Part shown: piece after piece, positions 16,617 through 62,490 of the stretch | Layout: every line of letters begins with the position of its first letter | Position numbering within the stretch: the stretch's first letter is position 1 | Origin: an uncultured Pelagibacteraceae bacterium | GTDB taxonomy: Bacteria; Pseudomonadota; Alphaproteobacteria; Pelagibacterales; Pelagibacteraceae | Assembly (NCBI GenBank): GCA_902550805.1 | Contig: CACDAL010000001.1 | Coordinates: 62,001 to 126,000 of the forward strand | Length of the DNA stretch: 64,000 bases | Direction: 5' to 3' | Notes under the pieces: model-generated | The model's database searches: none | What the model was told of the DNA's origin: nothing | The model's input: the letters and a program-made list of their open reading frames with translations, nothing else | Translations under genes and position numbers: made by a program

Positions 16617-18035
16617 ATGAATAAAAAATTACTTACAGTTAATGATGCAAAAAAATTAGACATAGGCACAGTACAAGAATTTTATAAAAATCATATTTCA
16701 AAATCACAATTAAATTTTTTTAAAAATTTTACTTTTGGTAATGATGTAATTCAAAAAGCTGAGGGCAGTTATATATATACCTCCAATAAAAAAATCTTAG
16801 ATTTAACAGGAGGAATTGGAGTACTTAATCATGGTCATAATAATAAAAAAATATTAGATGAAAGAATTTGTTTTCAAGAGGAAAAAAGAATGGAAGTCCA
16901 TAAACTTTTTTTTTCACAATACTTAGCTGCCTTAAGTTACAATATAGCCCAGATATTACCTGGAGATTTAAATAGGTCTTTCTTTCCCAACTCCGGAGCC
17001 GAGGCAATCGAGGGTGCTATAAAATTAGCATATAAATATTATAGCGGAAAAAGAAAATATATTCTTCACTCAGATATATCATTTCATGGCAAAACAATTG
17101 CTGCGGCTAGTATTTCTGGATCAGAAGAAATTAATTTTGATTATCAAAAAATATCAGGTGTAGATAAATTTATTTTTAATAATTTTGAAAGCTTGAAAAA
17201 AAAAGTTTATGAAATTAAACAAAAAAACGAAGATTGTTATGCAATTATTATTGAGCCTTTAAGCGCGAGCACATTGAGAAAAAGTGATAATGATTTTCTT
17301 ACACAAGCTAGAGATTTATGTGATAAAGAAAATATAATTTTAATATACGACGAAATCTACTCTGGATGGTGTAAAACAGGTCATCTATTTAATTTTTTAA
17401 GATCAGATACAATTCCTGACATACTGGTTTATGCAAAATCTTTTGGAGGGGGAAAGGCCTCAATATCTGGCTACACAACAAGAGATCACATTATGTTAAA
17501 AGCATATGATAACTCTGATGATTTCAGCCTACAATCATCTACATATAATGGCTTCGGAGAAGAATGCATAACTGCAATAGAAGCTATAAATTTAATAATT
17601 GAAAATAACTATGAAAAAAAGTCACTTGAAAATGGAGAGACATTAAGAAAAATCCTTGAAGAAACAAAAAAAAAATTTCCTAATATTATAGACGAAATTA
17701 GAGGATCGGGAAGTTTCTACGGGTTTACATTAAATAATCCTTTTAATGAAAAAATTGAGAATTTAATAACCCAATTTATACCAATTAAAACTTATAGAGA
17801 CAAAAATTTTTTTAAAAAATTACTTTGCGCATCTATAATTAATCAATTATATCAAGATAAAAATATTTTAACTTTTGGAAGTTTTGCATCGGACATATTA
17901 TTTAAAGTTTCTCCAGCAATCGAAATTGATAAAAAAGATTTGGAAGAATTTGAAATTGGACTTATTAATGTTTTAAAAATTGGAAGTTTGAATTTAATTG
18001 GAAATTTTTTAAAATATAAATTTTCAAAAAAATGA
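16617..18035 (+). CDS. Class III (acetylornithine/GSA-type) PLP aminotransferase
   Basis: A 472-residue fold-type-I aminotransferase of class III. Visible are the LDLTGGIGVLNHGHN entrance motif and the PLP phosphate-binding FFPNSGAEAIEGAIKLA. The FHGKTIAAASISGS loop follows, then the PLP-contacting IIIEPLS and ILIYDEIYSGWCKTG segments. The Schiff-base lysine is in YAKSFGGGKASISG. The substrate is an amine donor plus an aldehyde or keto acid and cannot be assigned. It lies 7 bp after the preceding transferase and before a small membrane protein and a GMC oxidoreductase, which may produce its carbonyl substrate. Confidence 0.85.
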   Translation: MNKKLLTVNDAKKLDIGTVQEFYKNHISKSQLNFFKNFTFGNDVIQKAEGSYIYTSNKKILDLTGGIGVLNHGHNNKKILDERICFQEEKRMEVHKLFFSQYLAALSYNIAQILPGDLNRSFFPNSGAEAIEGAIKLAYKYYSGKRKYILHSDISFHGKTIAAASISGSEEINFDYQKISGVDKFIFNNFESLKKKVYEIKQKNEDCYAIIIEPLSASTLRKSDNDFLTQARDLCDKENIILIYDEIYSGWCKTGHLFNFLRSDTIPDILVYAKSFGGGKASISGYTTRDHIMLKAYDNSDDFSLQSSTYNGFGEECITAIEAINLIIENNYEKKSLENGETLRKILEETKKKFPNIIDEIRGSGSFYGFTLNNPFNEKIENLITQFIPIKTYRDKNFFKKLLCASIINQLYQDKNILTFGSFASDILFKVSPAIEIDKKDLEEFEIGLINVLKIGSLNLIGNFLKYKFSKK

Positions 18036-18363: not shown

Positions 18364-19818
18364 ATGAGCGACTTTACAATTATTGGATCGGGAGCTGGAG
18401 GTTCATCGGCTGCACTTGAATTATTGGAAAATGGTTATTCCGTTGAAATCTTTGAGGAAGGAATTAACTATAATAATGAAAAAAACAGTGTTTTACAAGG
18501 ATTGATGTCTTTGTGGAGAAATAATGGAATTAATCTTTTTCATGGTAGTCCAATTTTAAATTTTGGAGAAGGAAAATGTGTTGGAGGCTCTACTATAATA
18601 AATGGTGGAGTAATAGAACCCACTAACGAAAAAATACTCGAATTATGGGATAATATTTTAGATGAAAACTTTTTTTTGAATGATGAATTTATAAAAATCA
18701 GTAATGAAATTAAAGAAAAGTTGGTTCCCGAAAACCAGCAAGATGATGATAATTTGATTTCAAGTTCAAGTGAAATTTTATTAGAAGCTGCAAAAAAAAA
18801 AAATTACATTACTAAATCAACTAATCTTGCATTTAATAATCTCAGAGTAAATCACAATAGTCCTTTTGGTTGTTCAGATAATTCTAAAAATAGTCTTGAT
18901 AAAAATTATCATATTTTTATTAAAAATAAGGGTGGAACTATAATAAGCAATTCTAAAGTTGTAGATATAATTAAAAAAGAAAATGCTGCAGAAAAAATTA
19001 CTATTGAAAATAATAAAACAAAAGAAAAAAAAGAAATAAAAATTAAAAATTTAATTTTAAGTGCTGGACCCACGCAAACCCCAAAACTTATACTAAAAAA
19101 TAATTTATCAAATTTTGTAAATAATTTAAATTTTCATATGAACTTAAAAATTCTATGCTTTTATGAAAACGAAATTGAAAGTTATAAATCAAGTTTGTTA
19201 ACGCATCATGTAAGAGAATTTGAAAAAAATGGAGTTCTTTTTATGGCCTCGAATTACATTAAACCTTTAATTGCATCTTATCTAAATTTTCAGAAATCAG
19301 ATAATATAACTGAATTTATGGAGGTTTATAAAAATGGGACAATTTTTAACTGTCAAATCCAACCCAATTTTAGCACAGCTAATATTAAAAAATCTAATTT
19401 ATTAAATAAAGTAAATATATCCTGGAATTTAGATGAAAGAGATTTTTTAAAAATTAAAAAGTATTTAAAAATTTTAACTGAATTAGTTTTTATAAGTGGT
19501 GCTAAAAAAATTTTATTACCCTTTGAGAATAATTCAGCAATATCAAGAAGTATTGATGATGCATTTAACAAGATAGATACTTTAAAAAAAAAACATTTAG
19601 AAATAACCTCAGTTCATGCTATGAGCTCATGCTCATTAAACAATGGTGATAAAAATATAATTAACAAATTTGGATTATTGAAAAATTTTAAAAATATTTA
19701 TCTGATGGACTCAAGTATTATGCCGTCTAATACTGGCCAACATCCTCAATTAACAGTGATGACCATGGTAAAAAAATTAATTCAAAAAAATATAGAAAAT
19801 AAAAAATTCAAAGTATAA
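18364..19818 (+). CDS. GMC-family FAD-dependent oxidoreductase
   Basis: A 484-residue flavoprotein. The dinucleotide-binding motif is FTIIGSGAGGSSAALELL at residues 4-21. The GMC-typical FAD loop GEGKCVGGSTIINGGVI is near residue 76. The C-terminal active-site region carries SVHAMSSCSLNN and MDSSIMPSNTGQHPQLTVM, with the conserved His and Asn/His pair. Such enzymes oxidise alcohols to aldehydes or ketones. Context next to a class III aminotransferase suggests alcohol oxidation followed by transamination to an amine, but no pathway of this kind is known to me in SAR11. A run of 12 A bases lies within the gene near 18792. Confidence 0.83.
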   Translation: MSDFTIIGSGAGGSSAALELLENGYSVEIFEEGINYNNEKNSVLQGLMSLWRNNGINLFHGSPILNFGEGKCVGGSTIINGGVIEPTNEKILELWDNILDENFFLNDEFIKISNEIKEKLVPENQQDDDNLISSSSEILLEAAKKKNYITKSTNLAFNNLRVNHNSPFGCSDNSKNSLDKNYHIFIKNKGGTIISNSKVVDIIKKENAAEKITIENNKTKEKKEIKIKNLILSAGPTQTPKLILKNNLSNFVNNLNFHMNLKILCFYENEIESYKSSLLTHHVREFEKNGVLFMASNYIKPLIASYLNFQKSDNITEFMEVYKNGTIFNCQIQPNFSTANIKKSNLLNKVNISWNLDERDFLKIKKYLKILTELVFISGAKKILLPFENNSAISRSIDDAFNKIDTLKKKHLEITSVHAMSSCSLNNGDKNIINKFGLLKNFKNIYLMDSSIMPSNTGQHPQLTVMTMVKKLIQKNIENKKFKV

Positions 19819-20613: not shown

Positions 20614-21387
20614 ATGAAAACAATAATATTGTGTGGTGGAAAAGGTCTCAGAATAAGAGATGTTTCTGATAGTCTGCCTAAACCAATGATAAAAATTGGC
20701 AAATACCCAATTGTTCATCATATCATGAAAATATATTCTAAATATAATTTTAATAAATTTATTTTATGTGTTGGATATAAAGGTGAAGTTATTATAAATT
20801 ATTTTAAAGACCTTCCTTATATTGACTCTGATATTTTTTTTAACTACAGCAAAAAAAAGGAAACTTTTGAAGTAGAAAAATACATTAAAAAGTGGGAAGT
20901 TCAAATAGCTCAAACTGGCAATGATTCAAATACAGGGTATAGAGTATTTGCAGTAAAAAAATATATAAAGGAAAAAAATTTTTTCCTTACTTATGGTGAT
21001 GGAGTTGGCAATATAGATATAAAAAAATTATTAAATTTTCATTTTTCTCACAAAAAATTAGTAACCCTTACGGCTGTAAGACCCCCTTCAAGATTCGGGG
21101 AAATTATTACCAAAAACAATTTAGTTTTAAATTTTAATGAAAAACCACAAGTTAAAATTGGTAGAATAAATGGAGGATTTTTTGTTTGTAAAAAAGAAAT
21201 TTTCGACTACTTCAATAAAAATGATATTGAAACGTGTAGTTTTGAACATGATATTTTGCCAAGGATAGCAAAAGACAAACAATTGATGAGTTATGATCAT
21301 AAAGATTTTTGGATGCCAATGGATACAAACCGAGAATATGAGGTTTTAAATAAATTATGGAAAAAAAGTCCAAAACTTTTCTTTTAA
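20614..21387 (+). CDS. rfbF: Glucose-1-phosphate cytidylyltransferase
   Basis: Makes CDP-glucose from CTP and alpha-D-glucose-1-phosphate, the first step to CDP-deoxyhexoses. Motifs match RfbF/DdhA: IILCGGKGLRIRD at the N-terminus, LPKPMIKIGKYPIVHHIMK near residue 24, LTYGDGVGNIDI near 127, FNEKPQ, RINGGFFVC, and FEHDILPRIA. Length (257) is that of the family. The 3' end overlaps rfbG by 31 bp, and the pair forms a packed translational unit. Confidence is high because the linked dehydratase confirms the pathway. Confidence 0.93.
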   Translation: MKTIILCGGKGLRIRDVSDSLPKPMIKIGKYPIVHHIMKIYSKYNFNKFILCVGYKGEVIINYFKDLPYIDSDIFFNYSKKKETFEVEKYIKKWEVQIAQTGNDSNTGYRVFAVKKYIKEKNFFLTYGDGVGNIDIKKLLNFHFSHKKLVTLTAVRPPSRFGEIITKNNLVLNFNEKPQVKIGRINGGFFVCKKEIFDYFNKNDIETCSFEHDILPRIAKDKQLMSYDHKDFWMPMDTNREYEVLNKLWKKSPKLFF

Positions 21388-22439
21388 AAAAGTATTATAA
21401 AAAAAAAAGAGTTTTAGTTACTGGAGCAAATGGCTTTAAGGGTATTTGGTTGAGTTTAATACTTAAAACGTTTGGAGCAGAAGTCTATGGCATTGGTATC
21501 TTTAATAAGAGTTACTTACTTTCAAAGTATTTAAAATTAGAAAATATAATTAATTACAAAAATTTGAATATTAATAATCAATTACATTTAAAAAGATACG
21601 TAAATAAAATAAAACCTGATATTATATTTCATTTAGCTTCAGAAAGTTTAGTGAGTAGTTGCCATGAAAATCCAATTAATGCATTTAACACAAATGTATT
21701 GGGTTTAGTAAAATTCTTAGAAATATTTAAATCATTAAAATCAAAAAAAAAATTAATATTGAATATCGTTACATCTGATAAATGTTATCTACCACAATCA
21801 AAAAAAAAATATCAAGAACATGACTCGCTTGGTGGATACGATATTTACAGCGCATCAAAATCTTGTCAGGAGATCGTTGTTAAGTCGTATTTTGAGAGCT
21901 TTTTTAAAAAAAATAAAAATATTTTTTTAACAACTTTTAGGGCTGGAAATGTAATAGGCGGTGGCGATTATGCTTTAAATAGACTTTTTCCCGACATATC
22001 TAGAGTTCTTAACAATAAAAAAATAATTAAAATTAGAAATCATAGGTCTACAAGACCATGGCAACATGTATTGGATTGTCTTAATGGTTATTTACAAACA
22101 ACTATTTATTGCGATTTAAATAGAATAGCTTTTTCGAATTGGAATTTTTCACCATCATATAAATCAATGTCTGTTAAAAATATTATTTCTTTATTAATAA
22201 AAAATAAATCAATAAATCGAAAACAAGTAGTTTTTATAAATAATTTTATCAAAGAAAGTTTACATTTAAATCTGAATAACAAAAAAGTTACAAAATTAAT
22301 TAAGTGGAAAAATAAGTTTAATTTTAAACAGACAGTGATTGAAACAATAAATTTTTATATCGAAATAAATAAAAACAAAAAAAATCCAATTTTACTCATG
22401 AAATCTGTGGAAAAAAAAATTAGCAACTTTTTCAATTAA
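21357..22439 (+). CDS. rfbG: CDP-glucose 4,6-dehydratase
   Basis: Extended SDR converting CDP-glucose to CDP-4-keto-6-deoxyglucose. The Rossmann motif is VLVTGANGFKGIWLSLIL, typical of RfbG/DdhB with its FKG. LASESLVSSCHENPINAFNTN is present near residue 97. TSDKCY and the YSASKSCQEIV YxxxK pair complete the active site, and RAGNVIGGGDYALNRLFPD is the family-specific substrate loop. The length of 360 is typical. It overlaps rfbF by 31 bp and the next gene by one base. The product is the branch point to 3,6-dideoxyhexoses or CDP-6-deoxyhexoses; no rfbH homologue lies in the window. Confidence 0.92.
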   Translation: MEKKSKTFLLKKYYKKKRVLVTGANGFKGIWLSLILKTFGAEVYGIGIFNKSYLLSKYLKLENIINYKNLNINNQLHLKRYVNKIKPDIIFHLASESLVSSCHENPINAFNTNVLGLVKFLEIFKSLKSKKKLILNIVTSDKCYLPQSKKKYQEHDSLGGYDIYSASKSCQEIVVKSYFESFFKKNKNIFLTTFRAGNVIGGGDYALNRLFPDISRVLNNKKIIKIRNHRSTRPWQHVLDCLNGYLQTTIYCDLNRIAFSNWNFSPSYKSMSVKNIISLLIKNKSINRKQVVFINNFIKESLHLNLNNKKVTKLIKWKNKFNFKQTVIETINFYIEINKNKKNPILLMKSVEKKISNFFN

Positions 22440-26194: not shown

Positions 26195-26314
26195 TTGCCT
26201 GGTGATTTTTGCGAAAGGGTAATACCCGATCCCATTCCGAACTCGGAAGTCAAGCCTTTCTGCGCCGATGGTACTTTGTCTTAAGACATGGAAGAGTAGG
26301 ACATTGCCAGGCAA
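26195..26314 (+). rRNA. rrf: 5S ribosomal RNA
   Basis: About 120 nt with the terminal helix TTGCCTGG / CCAGGCAA pairing exactly. The conserved internal block CCGATCCCATTCCGAACTCG is at about 26228-26247, with GCGCCGATGGTACT at about 26262-26275 and a GAGAGTAGG-like end (GAAGAGTAGGAC). This is a complete 5S gene without adjacent 16S or 23S. It is flanked on both sides by polysaccharide genes in the same orientation. The next gene starts 16 bp after its end with no visible terminator. Confidence 0.96.
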
Positions 26315-26330
26315 ATATTAATCAATCCAG

Positions 26331-27233
26331 ATGAAAAACATTTTAGTAATAACTGGTGGTGCTGGATTTGTAGGATCTAATCTAGTTAATTTTCTTTTAG
26401 AAAAAACAAAATTCAAGATTATTAGTCTAGACAATTATTCAACAGGGACAAAAAAAAATCATAATAATTCTAAAAGAGTAAAATATATTAGAAGTGATAC
26501 TTCAAATATTAAGAAAGCATTATCGAAATATAAAAAAAATATAAATTCAATTTTTCATTTTGGAGAATTTTCAAGAATATTTCAAAGTTTTGAAAAATTT
26601 AATAAATGTATTAAATCAAATTCTATTGGAACAAGTGAAGTTTTTAATTTTTGTTTGGAAAATAAAATTAAACTTGTCTACTCAGCAACATCAGCAACAA
26701 TCGGTAATAATGGAGAAGATAAAAACTTATCTCCATATGCATTTACAAAATCTAAAAATTTAGAATTATTAGAAAATTTAAGAAGTTGGTTTAATTTTAA
26801 ATATGAAATAATTTACTTTTATAATGTATACGGACCTAATCATATAAAATCAGGTGAAATGGCAACAGTCATAGGTATTTTTGAAAATCAATTTTTAAAA
26901 AAAAAACCTTTAACCGTTGTCAAACCAGGCACTCAATCAAGAAGATTTACTCATATTTATGATACAATCAATGTTTGTTATGAAGCGTGGGTGAAAAATA
27001 AATGTGCTTATTACAGTATTTCACATAGAAAATCATATTCAATAAAAAAAGTTGCAAAAATGTTTAAAAAAGAAATTAAATATTTGCCTCCAAGATTAGG
27101 TGAGCGTTATGCATCTGCGCTTACAAATATTTCTTATGAAAATAAAATTTTTAAAAGATTTGGAAAAAAAAGATTGGAAGATTACATAAAAAATTTTATT
27201 CAAAATAATCAATCTAACAAGAAAAAAAATTAA
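26331..27233 (+). CDS. NAD-dependent nucleotide-sugar epimerase/dehydratase (extended SDR)
   Basis: A 300-residue SDR with ITGGAGFVGSNLVNFLL, LDNYSTGTKKNH and an HFGEFSRIFQS segment where WbpP/GalE-type enzymes have HxAA. Catalytic residues are in YSATSATIG and YAFTKSKNLELL, followed by the FYNVYGPNH loop. This points to a UDP-hexose or UDP-HexNAc 4-epimerase/4,6-dehydratase; specificity is unclear. It starts 16 bp after the 5S rRNA, so it may be cotranscribed with it. It opens the cassette of amidine-sugar genes that follows. Confidence 0.8.
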   Translation: MKNILVITGGAGFVGSNLVNFLLEKTKFKIISLDNYSTGTKKNHNNSKRVKYIRSDTSNIKKALSKYKKNINSIFHFGEFSRIFQSFEKFNKCIKSNSIGTSEVFNFCLENKIKLVYSATSATIGNNGEDKNLSPYAFTKSKNLELLENLRSWFNFKYEIIYFYNVYGPNHIKSGEMATVIGIFENQFLKKKPLTVVKPGTQSRRFTHIYDTINVCYEAWVKNKCAYYSISHRKSYSIKKVAKMFKKEIKYLPPRLGERYASALTNISYENKIFKRFGKKRLEDYIKNFIQNNQSNKKKN

Positions 27234-27237
27234 AATA

Positions 27238-28254
27238 ATGTTAAAAATTGGTATAATTGGATGTGGAAAAATAATAATCAAACACTTAAATGCAATTCAA
27301 AAATTGAAAAAAAATTTAAATTTAGTAAGTGTTTGTGATGTTGAATTATTTAAAGCAAAAAAAATAGCTAATAAATTAAATATTAAACCTTATTCAAATT
27401 ATAAAGAGATGCTTAAAAATGAAAATTTAGATTTGGTCTCATTATTAACACCACATGGATTTCATTTAAAGCAGTATCTAGAAATTTCCAAGTTTAAAAT
27501 AAATTGTATAATTGAGAAGCCATTAGCAATAAAATTCAATGATGCTAAAAAAATAAAACAAAGAAGTAAAGAAATAAAAAAAAAAATATTTGTAGTTAAG
27601 CAAAATCGATTTAATCCTACTTTAAAATATTTTAATGATTTAAATAAAAAAAAAATATTTGGAAATCTTTTTTTGGGAAATGCAACAATTAGATGGAGAA
27701 GGAATGAAAAATACTTTAACCAAGCAAAATGGCGAGGTACCAAAAAATTAGATGGAGGAGTTATTGCAAATCAAGCAAGTCATCATTTAGATTTTTTAAT
27801 TCATACACTGGGAAAAGTTAAATCTGTACATGCAATGGGTTCGAAATTTCTAGCTAAAAATATAGAAGCAAAAGATACCTTAATAGCAAACTTAGAATTT
27901 GAAAAAAATAAATATGCCTCTATAGAGGCTACTACAGCCACATCTCCAGAAGATATAGAGGGATCTATTTCATTTCTTGGAACTAAAGGAACAATCATTA
28001 TAGGTGGTTTTGCTATGAATGAGTTAATATATTGTAAATCTAGCAACAAAATAAAAAAAAATAAATTTATATTGAGTCAAAAAAATATTAATTCTACCAG
28101 TAATCACAAGAAATTTTATGATTTTGTTATTAAAAATTATAATAATAATAAAATCATAAATAAAAATTTAGATTTAGCAGTTCATGTTTCTGAAGTAATT
28201 GAGGCTATAAATAAATCAGCTGAAACTAATAAATTAATAAAACTTAAAAATTAA
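27238..28254 (+). CDS. Gfo/Idh/MocA oxidoreductase, WbpB/WlbA-like
   Basis: A 338-residue oxidoreductase. The NAD motif is IGIIGCGKIIIKHLNAI, and the family EKP motif is in CIIEKPLAIKFND. The catalytic region is LDGGVIANQASHHLDFLI (Asp and His near residue 180-185), as in WlbA/WbpB. WbpB oxidises the 3-OH of UDP-GlcNAc-uronate to feed the WbpE aminotransferase. Both a WbpE-like and a WbpD-like gene follow in this cassette, so that role fits. No WbpA (6-dehydrogenase) is in the window. The stop is 2 bp before the GTG of the HisH-like gene. Confidence 0.83.
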   Translation: MLKIGIIGCGKIIIKHLNAIQKLKKNLNLVSVCDVELFKAKKIANKLNIKPYSNYKEMLKNENLDLVSLLTPHGFHLKQYLEISKFKINCIIEKPLAIKFNDAKKIKQRSKEIKKKIFVVKQNRFNPTLKYFNDLNKKKIFGNLFLGNATIRWRRNEKYFNQAKWRGTKKLDGGVIANQASHHLDFLIHTLGKVKSVHAMGSKFLAKNIEAKDTLIANLEFEKNKYASIEATTATSPEDIEGSISFLGTKGTIIIGGFAMNELIYCKSSNKIKKNKFILSQKNINSTSNHKKFYDFVIKNYNNNKIINKNLDLAVHVSEVIEAINKSAETNKLIKLKN

Positions 28255-28256
28255 AA

Positions 28257-28862
28257 GTGACTATCAGTATAATTGATTACGGTGTCTGTAATTCATATTC
28301 AGTTAAAAATATGATTAACAGAATAGGGTATCCATGCAATATTATAAATTCACCAAGTGAGATAAAAAATGATAGCAAACTTATTCTTCCAGGAATAGGA
28401 TCTTTTGACAACGGTATAAAAAATCTTAAAAAATTTTCTTGGGATATATATTTGAAAAACGATTTTAAACCTGACAAACAACATCTTCTTTGTTTTTGTT
28501 TAGGTATGCAGCTATTATTTAACAATAGTGAAGAGGGTAATTTAGATGGTTTAGCTTTAATAAGTGGAAATGTGAGAAAATTAAAAAAAGGCTCAATGAA
28601 AATTCCAAATATGGGATGGAGAAATTTAAAATTAATTAAATCACATCCCATCACAAATAATATATTGCTTGAGGATAAATTTTATTTTGTACATTCTTAT
28701 TTTTGTGATCTTGATGAGAAACATACTGTGTTAGCCGAGTCAAATCATGCAGAACCATTTCCCGCTATTATAGAAAAACAAAAAATAATTGGTTGTCAAT
28801 TTCATCCTGAAAAAAGTAATATTTATGGAATGAAAATCATAGAAAATTTTATAAATTTATGA
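28257..28862 (+). CDS. hisH2: HisH-like glutamine amidotransferase (HisH2 paralogue for sugar amidation)
   Basis: Class I glutaminase of 201 residues, starting at GTG 28257. The oxyanion loop is LILPGIGSFDNGI, the nucleophile is Cys81 in CFCLGMQLLF, and the His183/Glu185 pair is in CQFHPEKS, so the triad is intact. It should hydrolyse glutamine and pass ammonia to a partner. The partner here is not histidine synthesis: the following HisF-like protein lacks the cyclase aspartates, and next comes an N-acetyl-sugar amidotransferase. This matches the wbpG-hisH2-hisF2 arrangement of Pseudomonas O-antigen clusters. The stop overlaps the hisF-like start (ATGA). Confidence 0.87.
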   Translation: MTISIIDYGVCNSYSVKNMINRIGYPCNIINSPSEIKNDSKLILPGIGSFDNGIKNLKKFSWDIYLKNDFKPDKQHLLCFCLGMQLLFNNSEEGNLDGLALISGNVRKLKKGSMKIPNMGWRNLKLIKSHPITNNILLEDKFYFVHSYFCDLDEKHTVLAESNHAEPFPAIIEKQKIIGCQFHPEKSNIYGMKIIENFINL

Positions 28863-29587
28863 AAAATTATCATAGAGTTATACCCACCCTTCTTCTTCAA
28901 GATAGAGATTTTGTAAAGACAATAAAATTTAGCAATCCAAGGTATCTCGGCGATCCAATAAATATAATGAGAATTTTTAACGATAAATTTGTTGATGAAT
29001 TGTGCATATTAAACATTACAAATAATTTAAAAAAAAATAATTTTGATTTTTTAAAAGATATATTTAGCGAATGTCTTCTCCCATTATCTTATGGAGGAAA
29101 TATTGGAAGTATAGAGGATGTTAGAAAAATTTTTAAAATAGGTGCGGATAAAATTATTTTTTCTAGCAATCTTTATCAAAAACCAGAGTTGGTTAAAGAA
29201 ACAATCAAAGAAGTTGGCTCACAAGGAGTTGTTGGCTGTGTAAATGTTATAGAAAATGCTAACAATTACTCAATTTATTTGTCTGGCACGAAAGAGTTAA
29301 TTCACACAAATAATATCCAAGATAAAATCAAAGAGTTAGTAGATTTCGGTTTAGGTGAGTTGATAATTAACTTTGTCTCAAGAGATGGGATGAAATCAGG
29401 ATATGATTATAATTTTATAAAAAAAATCTCCACAAAAATAGGAATACCCTTAATCGTTCTTGGTGGAGCCAATTCAAAAGACGATTTTAATAAAGCTATA
29501 AATTCTGGCGCTAATGCCGTCGCGGCAAGTTCATACTTTGTTTTTATGGGAAATAGAGATGCGGTTATGTTAAGTTATAATAAATAA
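28859..29587 (+). CDS. hisF2: HisF-like protein (HisF2 paralogue) lacking cyclase catalytic aspartates
   Basis: A 242-residue TIM-barrel homologue of imidazole-glycerol-phosphate synthase cyclase. The barrel landmarks LPLSYGGNI, GADKIIFSS, SRDGMKSGYD and LGGANSKDDF are present. Aligned to Thermotoga HisF, the catalytic Asp11 position is Leu12 (VIPTLLLQD) and the Asp130 position is Asn129 (GCVNV). Histidine-pathway cyclase activity is therefore unlikely. In wbpG systems the HisF-like partner is thought to conduct ammonia from HisH to the amidotransferase. It overlaps hisH2 by 4 bp and precedes the wbpG-like gene by 3 bp. Confidence 0.86.
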   Translation: MKNYHRVIPTLLLQDRDFVKTIKFSNPRYLGDPINIMRIFNDKFVDELCILNITNNLKKNNFDFLKDIFSECLLPLSYGGNIGSIEDVRKIFKIGADKIIFSSNLYQKPELVKETIKEVGSQGVVGCVNVIENANNYSIYLSGTKELIHTNNIQDKIKELVDFGLGELIINFVSRDGMKSGYDYNFIKKISTKIGIPLIVLGGANSKDDFNKAINSGANAVAASSYFVFMGNRDAVMLSYNK

Positions 29588-29590
29588 TAA

Positions 29591-30766
29591 ATGTACGATA
29601 ATAAAAATATTAATTTCTATTATGATGATCCAATAAAAACTGTAAAAGATTCATTACAAAAAAAATTTGTTTCGAATTATAAGATTTGTAATACTTGCAT
29701 ATTTGATAATTCAATTGAAGATATATATTTTGACAAGAATGGATCGTGCTCTTTTTGCTTAGGATATAAAAAAAACAAAATTTCTGAAAAAAAGTTAAGC
29801 AAAATAATTAATAAAATTAAAAGTAGTAAAAAAAAATATGATTGCATTGTTGGTCTAAGTGGGGGAGTAGATAGCAGTTATGTGGCCTTAAAATGTAAAG
29901 AATTAGGATTAAATGCATTGCTTGTACATTTGGATAATGGATGGAATACAGAAACATCATGTAAAAATATAGAACTTATACAAAAATTTACTGGTTTTGA
30001 CTTAATTACACACATTGTTGATTGGAACGAATTTAAAAATTTGCAATTATCATTTTTAAAAGCAGGACTTTCAAATTTTGAAGGACCATCAGATCATGGA
30101 ATTTTTGCCACAATATATAATTATGCGATTAAAGAAAAAATTAAATACATAATTACAGGAGTTAATATTTCAACAGAGGCAATAAATGTTAAAACAAAAA
30201 GTAAAAAACTTTTATTCTGGTATGGATATTTATATCATGATTTATATCATTTAAATTCAATTAACAAAATTTTTTCACCAAAAAATAAATTAAATACATT
30301 CCCAAAAATATCTATATTTAAAAGAAAATTATTAGAAATAATTGGGAAAGTTGAAACGGTACATATTTTAAATCATATTAATTATGATAAGAAGCATGCT
30401 TTAAAAACTCTTAAAGATATTGGTTGGCAAGAATACAAAAACAAGCATTACGAGTCTATTATAACAAGGTTTCATCAATCTTTTATTTTACCAGTAAAAT
30501 TTGGCATAGATAAAAGAATGTGGCATTTGTCCAGTTTAATATGGTCAAATCAAATCACAAGAGATGAAGCAATAAAAAAAATAAGTGAAGATATTTGTGA
30601 TGATAAAATTTTAGTTCAGGATTATTATTTTTTTTTAAAAAAATTTAATCTATCGCAAGAAGAATTCGTGTCAATTTTGAGAAATAAAAACAAATATTTC
30701 TTTGAATATCCAAATAGATATTGGCTTATTAAACCAATGATAGATATAAGAAATATAATTAGTTAA
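29591..30766 (+). CDS. wbpG: N-acetyl sugar amidotransferase (WbpG/LfnA/PseA-like)
   Basis: A 391-residue PP-loop enzyme that would convert an acetamido group on a sugar to an acetamidino group using ammonia and ATP. Four cysteines form a zinc-type knuckle, C33-x2-C36 and C53-x2-C56, with the intervening FDNSIEDIYFDKNG as in this family. The PP-loop GLSGGVDSSYVAL begins near residue 88, followed by VHLDNGWNTETSCKNI. Directly upstream hisH2/hisF2 would supply ammonia, as in Pseudomonas aeruginosa. The adjacent diamino-uronate genes suggest the substrate is a diacetamido sugar. Confidence 0.88.
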   Translation: MYDNKNINFYYDDPIKTVKDSLQKKFVSNYKICNTCIFDNSIEDIYFDKNGSCSFCLGYKKNKISEKKLSKIINKIKSSKKKYDCIVGLSGGVDSSYVALKCKELGLNALLVHLDNGWNTETSCKNIELIQKFTGFDLITHIVDWNEFKNLQLSFLKAGLSNFEGPSDHGIFATIYNYAIKEKIKYIITGVNISTEAINVKTKSKKLLFWYGYLYHDLYHLNSINKIFSPKNKLNTFPKISIFKRKLLEIIGKVETVHILNHINYDKKHALKTLKDIGWQEYKNKHYESIITRFHQSFILPVKFGIDKRMWHLSSLIWSNQITRDEAIKKISEDICDDKILVQDYYFFLKKFNLSQEEFVSILRNKNKYFFEYPNRYWLIKPMIDIRNIIS

Positions 30767-31876
30767 ATGAAAAAAAAAATTAAATTTGTTGACTTGTATG
30801 CTCAGTATAAAAATCATAAAAAATTAATTGATAATTCCATAAAAAAAATAATTTTGAAATCAGATTTTATTAATGGTCAAAGCGTTAAGAGATTTGAAGA
30901 CAATTTTAAAAAAAAACTTAAAATAAATTATTGTATTACTACCAACAATGGAACAGACAGTTTGTATATTGCAATGAAATCTTTAAATTTAAAAAAAGAT
31001 CAAGAAGTTATAACTTCCGCACATACATGGATATCTTCAAGTTCATCAATTACACAGGCAGGAGGAAGACCTGTTTTTTGTGATACTTACGAAGATACCT
31101 TTAACATTGATGTTGATCAAATCAAAAAAAAAATTAACAAAAAAACAGCTGGAATAATTGTAGTCCATTTATATGGTCAACCTTGTAATATTTCTGAAAT
31201 AGTTAAATTGGCAAAAAAAAATAAAATGTGGATTATAGAAGATTGTGCACAGTCACATTTTGCTAAATATAAAAATAAATTCACCGGAACGTTTGGAGAT
31301 TTTGGATCTTTTTCTTTTTATCCAAGCAAAAATTTGGGAGCTTACGGAGATGCTGGTGCTTTAGTTACAAATAATAAAAGATTATATAAAAAAGCTCTAG
31401 TCTTTTCCAAACACGGTGGCTTTAAAAAAAATCAGCATCTAATAGAAGGAACAAACTCCAGGATGGATGGATTACAAGGTGCTATATTGGATATTAAACT
31501 TAAATATATTGATAAGTATAACTTAAAAAGATTGAATATTGCAAGATTGTATTCGAAACTCCTTTATGATGTAGGAGATATAGAGACACCAAAAATTATA
31601 GAAAACAGAGACCATGTCTTCCATCTATATGTTATTAAAACAAAAAAAAGAGATAAATTAAAAAAATTTTTATTACAAAATAATATTTCTTGTTCAATTC
31701 ATTACCCTAAATGTTTACCGAAACTTGCCGCCTATAAAAAATATAAATTTAAAGTAGACAGTTACCGCAATGCTCTAAAAAATCAAAAAAAAATTTTATC
31801 TCTTCCAATCTATCCAGAACTTGAAAAAAATAAGGTAAAATATATTTGCAAAAAAATTAAAGAATTTTTCTCTTAA
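30767..31876 (+). CDS. DegT-family aminotransferase, WbpE-like
   Basis: A 369-residue PLP aminotransferase. The N-terminal FVDLYAQYKNHKKLID is typical of WbpE/WlbC and related 3-aminotransferases. NNGTDSLYIAMKSL binds the PLP phosphate, MWIIEDCAQSHFAKY carries the pyridine-contacting Asp, and FYPSKNLGAYGDAGA holds the Schiff-base Lys. Predicted role: amination of the 3-keto product of the WbpB-like enzyme at 27238. The start ATG follows the wbpG-like stop directly. Its last 20 bp overlap the convergent acetyltransferase gene. Confidence 0.86.
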   Translation: MKKKIKFVDLYAQYKNHKKLIDNSIKKIILKSDFINGQSVKRFEDNFKKKLKINYCITTNNGTDSLYIAMKSLNLKKDQEVITSAHTWISSSSSITQAGGRPVFCDTYEDTFNIDVDQIKKKINKKTAGIIVVHLYGQPCNISEIVKLAKKNKMWIIEDCAQSHFAKYKNKFTGTFGDFGSFSFYPSKNLGAYGDAGALVTNNKRLYKKALVFSKHGGFKKNQHLIEGTNSRMDGLQGAILDIKLKYIDKYNLKRLNIARLYSKLLYDVGDIETPKIIENRDHVFHLYVIKTKKRDKLKKFLLQNNISCSIHYPKCLPKLAAYKKYKFKVDSYRNALKNQKKILSLPIYPELEKNKVKYICKKIKEFFS

Positions 31877-32321
31877 ATCTTGCGGGATTACCCGCATATA
31901 TTCCAGGTTGAGATATATTTTTTGTTACCACAGAACCAGCTCCGATTATTACATTTTTACATATTTTTACTGGCAATATTGTACTGCCTGATCCAATTTT
32001 TACATTATCTCCAACTTTTGTTTCTAACCAACTACTTTTTTTTTTACTCTTATATTTTTTTTTTGTAAATAAATCATTCGTAAACATCACTCCATGACCT
32101 ATAAAGCAGTTTTTTCCTATTTTAACTTTTTCACATAAAAAAGAATGACTAGAAATTCTAGTATTTTTTCCAATTTTGACATCTGCTTGAATTTCTACAA
32201 AAGGTCCAACAAATACATTTTCATCAAATTCACAGTTGTAGATATTTACTGGATTTATAATTGTTAAATTTTTTTTATATTTGATGTTTACAACTTTAAT
32301 TGACTTTTTAATTATTCCCAT
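31857..32321 (-). CDS. Hexapeptide-repeat sugar N-acetyltransferase, WbpD/WlbB-like
   Basis: A 154-residue left-handed beta-helix protein with successive hexapeptide repeats (VFVGPFVEIQADVKIGKNTR, VKIGKNCFIGHGVMFTND, VGDNVKIGSGSTILP, VIIGAGSVVTKN). It ends in the family tag YAGNPARFKRKI. The HGVMFTND segment, with an Asn/His-rich active loop, is characteristic of WbpD/WlbB, which acetylates the 3-amino group made by WbpE. Its minus-strand orientation is the only exception in the cassette, and it overlaps the WbpE-like gene tail to tail by 20 bp. Confidence 0.87.
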   Translation of the reverse strand: MGIIKKSIKVVNIKYKKNLTIINPVNIYNCEFDENVFVGPFVEIQADVKIGKNTRISSHSFLCEKVKIGKNCFIGHGVMFTNDLFTKKKYKSKKKSSWLETKVGDNVKIGSGSTILPVKICKNVIIGAGSVVTKNISQPGIYAGNPARFKRKIL

Positions 32322-32545: not shown

Positions 32546-32671
32546 ATGAAAATCGCAAGCTCACTTAAATCTTTAAAAAAAAGAGATCTAAATTCTAAAC
32601 TCGTAAGAAGAAGAGGAAGAGTTTATATAATTAATAAAAAAAATCCTAAATTTAAAGCAAGACAAAAGTAA
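32546..32671 (+). CDS. rpmJ: Ribosomal protein bL36
   Basis: A 41-residue basic protein: [14 protein letters not shown] at the start, then the family core [20 protein letters not shown] and a final RQK. It matches the alphaproteobacterial bL36 form (SLKSLK...RRRGRVYVINK...FKARQ), which lacks the zinc cysteines. It stands alone between the glycan island and the transhydrogenase operon, as is common for rpmJ in alphaproteobacteria. Confidence 0.95.
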
Positions 32672-61515: not shown

Positions 61516-62490
61516 TTTGTTAGTATTTCTTAGCTTTTTTAAAATATTTTCCAAATCCAAAGGTAAATTTGAAGAAAATTCCAAATACTCCTTAGTATTT
61601 GGGTGTTCAAATCCTAGAGTTTTAGCATGTAGAAATTGCCTGTCTAACTTAAAAATAGATTCTTCAAGTTCAGGTTTTATATTTTTAAATTTTTTAAATT
61701 TTTTTTTGTATTTTTTATCTCCTAATATATTATTTCCTTTAAAACTCATATGAACTCTAATCTGATGAGTTCTTCCAGTTTCAAGTCTACATTCAATAAG
61801 ACTAAAAGTTGGAGTGTTATTATTTTGAAATATTTCTATAGTTTTATAATTTGTTATTGCTTTTTTTCCTTTTGTTGTTCCAACTTGCATTAGTTGTCTA
61901 TTTTTTGTACTCCTTTTTATCAAGGTCTCTATTTTTCCATTTTGAGGTCTTAGCTTGCCCCAAATAATGGCTTGATAGATTCTTGTAATTTTGTGTTCGC
62001 TAAATTGATTTGATAAATATTCATGACTTTTATTATTTTTTGCAATTACAATTAGTCCAGAAGTGTCCTTATCAATTCTATGTACAATTCCAGGTCTAAG
62101 TTCATCTCCAATATTTGATAAATTTTTGTTATAGTATATTAATGCATTAACAATAGTATTGTCATAATTGCCAGCACCTGGATGCATTGATATTCCAGAT
62201 GATTTATTTATAACAATTAAATCATCATCTTCATAAACAATATCAAGTTTGTAATTATAAGGTTTTAGAGAAGATTTTTTTGGACTGGGTATTTCAAATA
62301 TAATTCTATCACCCTTCGATACCTTTTTTGAAGGATCTTCTAAAATCTTGTTGTTTAGTTTTAGTTTTTTTTTTAGAATTAAATTTTTTACTCTTGTCCT
62401 GCTTAATTCTTTTTTTTTTTTAGTTATAAAAGCATCTATTCTTAATGGACTGTCATTATTATCTACAATTAAGTTAATGATATTTTTCAT
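61513..62490 (-). CDS. rluD: RluA/RluD-family 23S rRNA pseudouridine synthase
   Basis: A 325-residue enzyme. An N-terminal S4 RNA-binding domain (RIDAFITKKKKELSRTRVKN ... LKLNNKI) is followed by the pseudouridine-synthase domain. DIVYEDDDLIVINKSSGISM and the catalytic-Asp motif RPGIVHRIDKDTSGLIVIAK (Asp in HRIDKDT) are clear, then CRLETGRTHQIRVHM. RluD/RluC modify 23S rRNA helices; which site cannot be told by sequence alone. Upstream on the opposite strand is tRNA-Arg. Confidence 0.9.
   Translation of the reverse strand: MKNIINLIVDNNDSPLRIDAFITKKKKELSRTRVKNLILKKKLKLNNKILEDPSKKVSKGDRIIFEIPSPKKSSLKPYNYKLDIVYEDDDLIVINKSSGISMHPGAGNYDNTIVNALIYYNKNLSNIGDELRPGIVHRIDKDTSGLIVIAKNNKSHEYLSNQFSEHKITRIYQAIIWGKLRPQNGKIETLIKRSTKNRQLMQVGTTKGKKAITNYKTIEIFQNNNTPTFSLIECRLETGRTHQIRVHMSFKGNNILGDKKYKKKFKKFKNIKPELEESIFKLDRQFLHAKTLGFEHPNTKEYLEFSSNLPLDLENILKKLRNTNK

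Follow-up and report, generated by a model that had tools for sequence, protein, structure and literature searches.

A six-gene cassette at the edge of the O-chain cluster of a SAR11 bacterium is likely to make a nucleotide-activated 3-acetamidino sugar

We analyzed a 64,000-nucleotide stretch of DNA from an uncultured Pelagibacteraceae (SAR11) bacterium, positions 62001–126000 of contig CACDAL010000001.1 (C1) in assembly GCA_902550805.1 (G000; 80% complete, 29 contigs). This whole stretch is referred to as the window, and genomes, contigs and loci are denoted by our own handles (G, C and L numbers). A cassette of six genes lies at 27238–32321 of the window, inserted between a gene for an extended short-chain dehydrogenase/reductase (SDR) and rpmJ. 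It consists of Gfo, HisH, HisF, WbpG and DegT-type genes followed by an acyltransferase gene that faces back. We consider it likely that this cassette makes a nucleotide-activated 3-acetamidino sugar. Judged from its sequence, it is a real and probably working system whose kind is known, although its 3-amino-sugar module is a variant and it lies outside the standard genomic island. The genes and their flanks are as follows:

26198–26312, plus strand: 5S rRNA gene (Rfam RF00001, 90.3 bits), which marks where the SAR11 O-chain cluster ends on the right (context)
26331–27233, plus strand: resident extended SDR, epimerase/dehydratase-like, outside the cassette (copies at 5S in relatives)
27238–28254, plus strand: Gfo/Idh/MocA sugar 3-dehydrogenase, WlbA-type (PDB 3q2i, 1.5e-55; AlphaFold model; active-site stretch)
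28257–28862, plus strand: HisH-like glutaminase paralogue (TIGR01855, 208.6 bits)
28859–29587, plus strand: HisF-like ammonia-channel paralogue of the AglZ/HisF2/WbuZ group (NF038364, 253.5 bits, under cut-off)
29591–30766, plus strand: N-acetyl sugar amidotransferase of the WbpG-type clade (TIGR03573, motifs, tree, fold match to 8wex)
30767–31876, plus strand: DegT-family pyridoxal phosphate-dependent sugar aminotransferase (Pfam PF01041, 4.4e-100; PDB 7b0d)
31857–32321, minus strand: left-handed beta-helix (hexapeptide) acyl(acetyl)transferase (Pfam PF00132; partner genes in five relatives)
32546–32668, plus strand: ribosomal protein L36 gene, which we take to be rpmJ, flanking the insertion on the right (context; 90% to the G063 copy by tblastn)

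In the order of reactions that we propose, the Gfo enzyme would oxidize C3 of a uridine diphosphate (UDP)-activated N-acetylhexosamine (HexNAc), the DegT enzyme would aminate the resulting 3-keto group, and the hexapeptide enzyme would acetylate the 3-amine. The WbpG-type amidotransferase would then use ATP to convert the 3-acetamido group to an acetamidine, with ammonia released from glutamine by HisH and channeled via HisF. The donor is probably derived from UDP-N-acetylglucosamine (UDP-GlcNAc) and of gluco configuration. The proposed destination of the sugar is a surface glycan, into which it would be built by glycosyltransferases of the neighboring O-chain cluster.

An earlier note on this DNA had described seven genes in series and named neither 5S nor rpmJ. 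An open reading frame (ORF) check of the window confirmed all seven at the coordinates above and closely packed, except that the last is not in series: the acyltransferase ORF runs on the minus strand and meets the plus-strand aminotransferase ORF tail to tail. The first of the seven, the SDR, proved to be no part of the cassette. The SAR11 O-chain cluster is delimited by the 23S and 5S rRNA genes (PMC11898729, consulted in part). In G000, 16S and 23S rRNA were located with Rfam at about C1:26.2–30.8 kb, and the O-chain cluster extends from 23S to 5S over about 57 kb (~C1:30.8 to 88.2 kb), whole on the same contig. Because 5S is the cluster end, the cassette region starts just outside the cluster. 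Eight genomes were fetched for comparison, and 5S was located in six of them (G063, G003, G017, G040, G009, and G035) and in none of the stretches from G218 and G374. All six carry a copy of the SDR, 60–73% identical, beside 5S, with rpmJ closely after the SDR or 5S; in G063 the SDR and rpmJ nearly touch. The same gap measures 5.3 kb in the window. No match to the cassette dehydrogenase or acyltransferase was found at the 5S–SDR–rpmJ site of the six relatives. Since these relatives have the SDR at 5S but no cassette there, the gene is a resident one, and for the same reason it was rejected as a candidate epimerase of the pathway. The SDRs that lie between the Gfo and DegT genes in G515 and G680 were also discarded as counterparts, as they are 26–27% identical to the window SDR and no nearer to it than other SDRs.

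On its right side, the O-chain cluster is bordered by a stable junction made up of 5S, the conserved SDR gene and rpmJ (window; L203, L208, L210, L217, L223, and L228), with the SDR on either side of 5S depending on the locus. Around eight further loci with a cassette or module, no rRNA was found. Within the window, G+C amounts to 21.8% for the O-chain part, 23.0–28.8% for the cassette genes and 29.0% for the sequence downstream of them. A scan of the insertion edges for direct and inverted repeats gave no clear ones, just short A+T-rich matches, and a promoter and terminator scan gave counts like those of shuffled sequence.

The amidination module was examined by families, motifs, and fold. 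The amidotransferase scored 259.8 bits with TIGR03573 (cut-off 203.2). Its PP-loop motif SGGVDS lies at residue 90, and its cysteine pattern CxxC...GxCxxC starts at residue 33; the family motifs are a PP-loop SGGxDS and a tetracysteine CxxC..[GN]xCxxC (PMC10607449, consulted in part). Its model (pLDDT 80) gave the solved member 8wex as the first Foldseek match (1.5e-13, TM 0.61). The HisH copy is above the TIGR01855 cut-off of 105.4 bits and, when aligned with the canonical copy of the same genome, retains the Cys, His, and Glu of the glutaminase triad. In the corresponding alignment of HisF, the two aspartates of the canonical protein are replaced by L and N. We take the triad residues of HisH and the aspartates of HisF to be catalytic. 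Canonical hisH and hisF were located together with hisA and hisB on contig C5 (a hisB-hisH-hisA-hisF-like order; names other than hisF assigned by eye), where hisF scored 350 bits versus 142 bits for the cassette copy. It is thus extremely improbable that HisH and HisF are ordinary histidine-biosynthesis genes located here by chance: the HisH score would allow it, but the genes on C5 and the loss of both HisF aspartates speak against it. The amidine chemistry fed by HisH/HisF paralogues, as predicted in the earlier note, is well supported by the families, the motifs and the separate canonical his genes.

The placement of the amidotransferase was examined in a tree built from a non-random input, namely 40 stretches chosen among the strongest and weakest amidotransferase hits and among dehydrogenase hits, and 79 loci found through the dehydrogenase. 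Among 55 amidotransferase sequences, SGGxDS was present in 47 and the tetracysteine pattern in 45. The tree has 53 rows, one of which (L088_7603) was rejected as a false recruit, being without both motifs and on a long branch. The window amidotransferase fell into a 13-row clade (SH-aLRT 96). Ten of the 12 other rows of this clade come from a locus with a related 3-dehydrogenase (>120 bits) or a HexNAc 6-dehydrogenase. This choice was biased, as five of the 12 (L079, L080, L090, L091, and L129) had been reached via the dehydrogenase and two more (L039 and L040) had been chosen since both genes were known there. The remaining five comprise L047, L049, and L050, with a 6-dehydrogenase, and L046 and L048 (contigs <6 kb), with neither. 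In the other clade, a 3-dehydrogenase (>120 bits) or HexNAc-type 6-dehydrogenase was found at 5 of 39 rows (4 loci), and remoter dehydrogenases (<120 bits) were also present at four loci. These 39 of the 53 SAR11-drawn rows, whose pseudaminic (PseA)/legionaminic nature is presumed, raise the alternative that the cassette amidinates a nonulosonic acid of the pseudaminic or legionaminic type in a PseA-like manner. This is very unlikely for the window enzyme, which belongs to the clade linked to 3-amino sugars and stands among 3-dehydrogenase, aminotransferase and acyltransferase genes.

Two further arrangements were seen in this family. Positions 977–3070 of L040 (the same as L085) encode a 698-residue protein with the amidotransferase in its first half and ~350 more residues that match no NCBIfam model at 1e-12. 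L053 and L077 each hold two or three amidotransferase-family genes and two HisH/HisF pairs in a 19-kb stretch, and these sets suggest that one strain can make two or more amidine sugars.

The 3-amino-sugar module was compared with solved proteins. The sequences nearest to the dehydrogenase were WlbA of Chromobacterium violaceum (3q2i, 192 bits) and of Bordetella pertussis (3q2k, 183 bits), at about 31% identity, and a profile search agreed. The first 11 fold hits of its AlphaFold model (pLDDT 89) were WlbA with NADH and UDP-N-acetylglucosaminuronate (UDP-GlcNAcA). The best NCBIfam model, an archaeal UDP-GlcNAc 3-dehydrogenase, was far under its cut-off (101.9 of 450 bits). WbpB was missing from the PDB matches of the dehydrogenase at 1e-10, so that it does not qualify as a WbpB orthologue. 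The aminotransferase was nearest to 7b0d (311 bits), with WbpE (191 bits) behind 7b0d and others. The best solved relative of the acyltransferase was 4mzu. It matched 3mqg, which we take to be WlbB, the WbpD equivalent, with just 37.7 bits and does not count as a WbpD (WlbB-type) orthologue. Genes for acyltransferases 58–62% identical to it accompany the dehydrogenase and aminotransferase in L079, L085 (G308), L088 (G399), L132, and L177 (G616). The likeness to WbpB, WbpE, and WbpD reported earlier therefore holds for the enzyme classes but not for the nearest relatives; by sequence, the dehydrogenase and the acyltransferase belong to other subfamilies, and the aminotransferase probably does as well. 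ORFs with similar starts and, by eye, a metallo-beta-lactamase-fold look border the dehydrogenase/aminotransferase module of two SAR11 genomes, at L132 (13775–15145) and L083 (593–1942).

The same amidotransferase with HisH/HisF and the same three enzyme classes are found in the Pseudomonas aeruginosa O5 route to UDP-2-acetamido-3-acetamidino-mannuronate (UDP-ManNAc3NAmA), formed by WbpA-B-E-D-I with WbpG/HisH2/HisF2. In contrast to that route, neither WbpA nor WbpI was detected in the cassette genome. The sole nucleoside diphosphate (NDP)-sugar 6-dehydrogenase of G000 above the family cut-off is of the UDP-glucose type. Its gene adjoins a galU-like gene (by eye), and the protein groups with the Escherichia coli Ugd side, away from WecC. 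It carries GPSYGGSC, a motif that we take to mark the UDP-glucose class, a link that also rests on the tree. A WbpA-type UDP-HexNAc 6-dehydrogenase was not found in the 80%-complete assembly, and a WbpI/WecB-type 2-epimerase was found neither in G000 nor in any of 12 relatives. Because this epimerase is missing from all of them, the manno form of the sugar is unlikely. The diamino-uronic acid of P. aeruginosa, as assigned earlier, was thus not supported. The genome-wide search for wbpA and wbpI proposed in the earlier note, which had named the absence of any UDP-HexNAc 6-dehydrogenase as a refutation, cuts both ways: only the UDP-glucose-type enzyme was above cut-off and no WbpI was found, but the assembly is incomplete and three of eight genomes with a comparable cluster do have a HexNAc-type enzyme.

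These eight genomes have the amidotransferase and dehydrogenase in one cluster (G000, G280, G308, G461, G515, G544, G680, and G718). The HexNAc-type 6-dehydrogenase is present in G461, G515, and G680, and the type is ambiguous in G718. In the three positive genomes, it is encoded on the same contig, 12–14 kb from the amidotransferase, and its absence elsewhere was therefore rejected as general proof against a uronate. Since another member of the amidotransferase family is encoded on the same G515 contig, the 6-dehydrogenase of that genome does not necessarily act for the cassette. The cassettes of G280, G308, L079, and G718 are near contig ends. Islands of SAR11 were reported to be complete in just 163 of 806 cases, with most islands of single amplified genomes partial (PMC11898729). 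A wider survey covered all 19 genomes above the dehydrogenase threshold, 13 of which are under 90% complete; the 6-dehydrogenase searches of the relatives listed matches to 1e-30. A HexNAc-type 6-dehydrogenase was found in six (G069, G412, G461, G469, G515, and G680) and not in 11, whereas two (G258 and G718) have a second dehydrogenase of ambiguous type. The G412 enzyme is without the searched motif, yet nearer the HexNAc type. Left out of the 19 were G399, which has a HexNAc-type enzyme and was found another way, G398 and G405, which look like G618 and G629, and the Pelagibacteraceae G400 and G401, with 38% and 35% dehydrogenases and, respectively, one unclassified NDP-sugar dehydrogenase and none.

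G063 (L049), a single-contig SAR11 genome given as 99% complete, served as a yardstick. It shares the amidination trio, and its amidotransferase falls in the same clade as that of the window. Unlike the window genes, however, those of G063 have WbpB (1.3e-79), 3mqg (6.6e-51, 176 bits), and WbpE (6.7e-83) as best solved relatives. They adjoin HisH-HisF-WbpG and a HexNAc-type 6-dehydrogenase (L049 6923–15065), the next-best models of which are HexNAc dehydrogenases, under their own cut-offs. As in the window genome, no WecB-type gene was found in G063. This gene set suggests UDP-2-acetamido-3-acetamidino-glucuronate (UDP-GlcNAc3NAmA) as its product.

The substrate of the window dehydrogenase can accordingly be read in more than one way. 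In a non-uronate route, the WlbA-like enzyme would use UDP-GlcNAc itself, giving UDP-2-acetamido-3-acetamidino-glucose. This sugar would carry a net positive charge instead of being zwitterionic; the proposal is plausible but tentative. The pair GnnA/GnnB, likened here by description, oxidizes UDP-GlcNAc at C3 and aminates it in lipid A synthesis without prior C6 oxidation; the portion of PMC7663294 consulted makes no mention of amidination. A full uronate route, a refinement rather than the opposite of the 3-acetamidino proposal, would start with C6 oxidation and lead to UDP-GlcNAc3NAmA, with the 6-dehydrogenase encoded in the fifth of the genome that is absent from the assembly. We regard it as a tentative candidate, about as probable as the non-uronate route. 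It is favored by WlbA as the nearest relative in sequence and fold, by the largely conserved active-site stretch, by the same-contig enzymes of G461, G680, and G515, and by the gene set of G063. G399, with the same dehydrogenase-acyltransferase-aminotransferase trio as the window, has a HexNAc-type 6-dehydrogenase as well. The 11 negative genomes of the 19 weigh in the other direction, within the limits of their completeness, and so does the lack of the enzyme in G000 despite its complete O-chain cluster. As that cluster is whole on the contig, the missing gene cannot be put down to an interrupted island, although the assembly lacks a fifth of the genome. The active-site stretch itself (RWxRxxxYxxxAxWRGTxxxDGGxxxNQxxHHxD) does not decide the substrate because it is largely common to loci that have a HexNAc 6-dehydrogenase and loci that do not. 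The dehydrogenase could also act on UDP-glucuronate supplied by the core UDP-glucose dehydrogenase, which would lead to 3-acetamidino-3-deoxy-glucuronate with no C2 amide. The UDP-glucose-type enzyme is present in G000 and relatives, and this substrate would retain the WlbA-like carboxylate contact without WbpA. It is nevertheless unlikely, as the substrates of the known relatives are 2-acetamido sugars. No precedent for it is known to us, although the literature was not searched for one.

Several observations weigh against the proposal that the cassette makes a 3-acetamidino sugar. The nearest solved dehydrogenase, WlbA, has UDP-GlcNAcA as its bound substrate, yet no maker of this compound was found in G000. 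The two best families of the HisF paralogue are both under their curated cut-offs (NF038364, 253.5 bits against 310; TIGR03572, 212.8 bits against 299.7), and this paralogue is without the second aspartate, which is kept by 9 of 10 aligned clade members (L040 excepted). The match of the amidotransferase to 8wex has a large root mean square deviation of 8.9 at its TM score. There is no glycosyltransferase inside the cassette, and the activity proposed for it is deduced from sequence and structural models. Finally, the cassettes of G280, G461, G515, G680, and G544 showed no match to the window acyltransferase in the stretches read, and acetylation is therefore not local in every case.

Related arrangements were nevertheless recovered in other genomes. 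L079 holds the same six classes at a contig end, in the order HisH-HisF-WbpG-Gfo-LbH-DegT, where LbH denotes the left-handed beta-helix acyltransferase. In G280 and G461, the HisH-HisF-WbpG genes neighbor those for the dehydrogenase and aminotransferase; in G680, G515, and G544, one gene intervenes. Of 19 handles with a relative of the dehydrogenase (two handle pairs look like one genome each), 5 have the amidotransferase above cut-off; therefore, amidination looks like an add-on to the dehydrogenase module. In the literature, a comparable gene set appears in an exopolysaccharide screen of freshwater Sphingomonas (PMC11340318), and the ManNAc3NAcA route has been described (PMC10622841), both sources being consulted in part. 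For SAR11, the portion of PMC3686209 consulted has a table row for a "glutamine amidotransferase class I" and nothing further. No amidine-sugar cassette in SAR11 was found among the literature matches listed (titles and starts of abstracts), and the main text of PMC11898729, on SAR11 O-chain clusters, contains no words beginning with amid, Wbp or uronic.

Other genes in the O-chain cluster of the window may act on sugars. A GMC oxidoreductase (18364–19818) lies there with a class-III aminotransferase (16617–18035), and flavoenzyme sugar oxidation by the former is conceivable. A glucose-1-phosphate cytidylyltransferase-like gene (under cut-off) and a cytidine diphosphate (CDP)-glucose 4,6-dehydratase gene (above cut-off) at 20614–22439 would constitute a CDP-sugar branch. 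Outside the window, an adenosylcobalamin (AdoCbl-II) riboswitch (L191 3355–3435, minus strand, 90.9 bits) was found just upstream of an ORF resembling, by eye, a TonB-type receptor.

The chemistry proposed for the cassette is known from other bacteria, whereas the gene set is a variant and its site is unusual. If the cassette indeed operates without WbpA and WbpI, amidine sugars would be made from a shorter gene set. In the bacterial family to which the window belongs, 117 of 397 genomes have a protein above the amidotransferase cut-off, and amidine sugars may therefore be common on these very abundant ocean cells. The charge of the surface likely affects which phages, grazers, and solutes reach the SAR11 cell.

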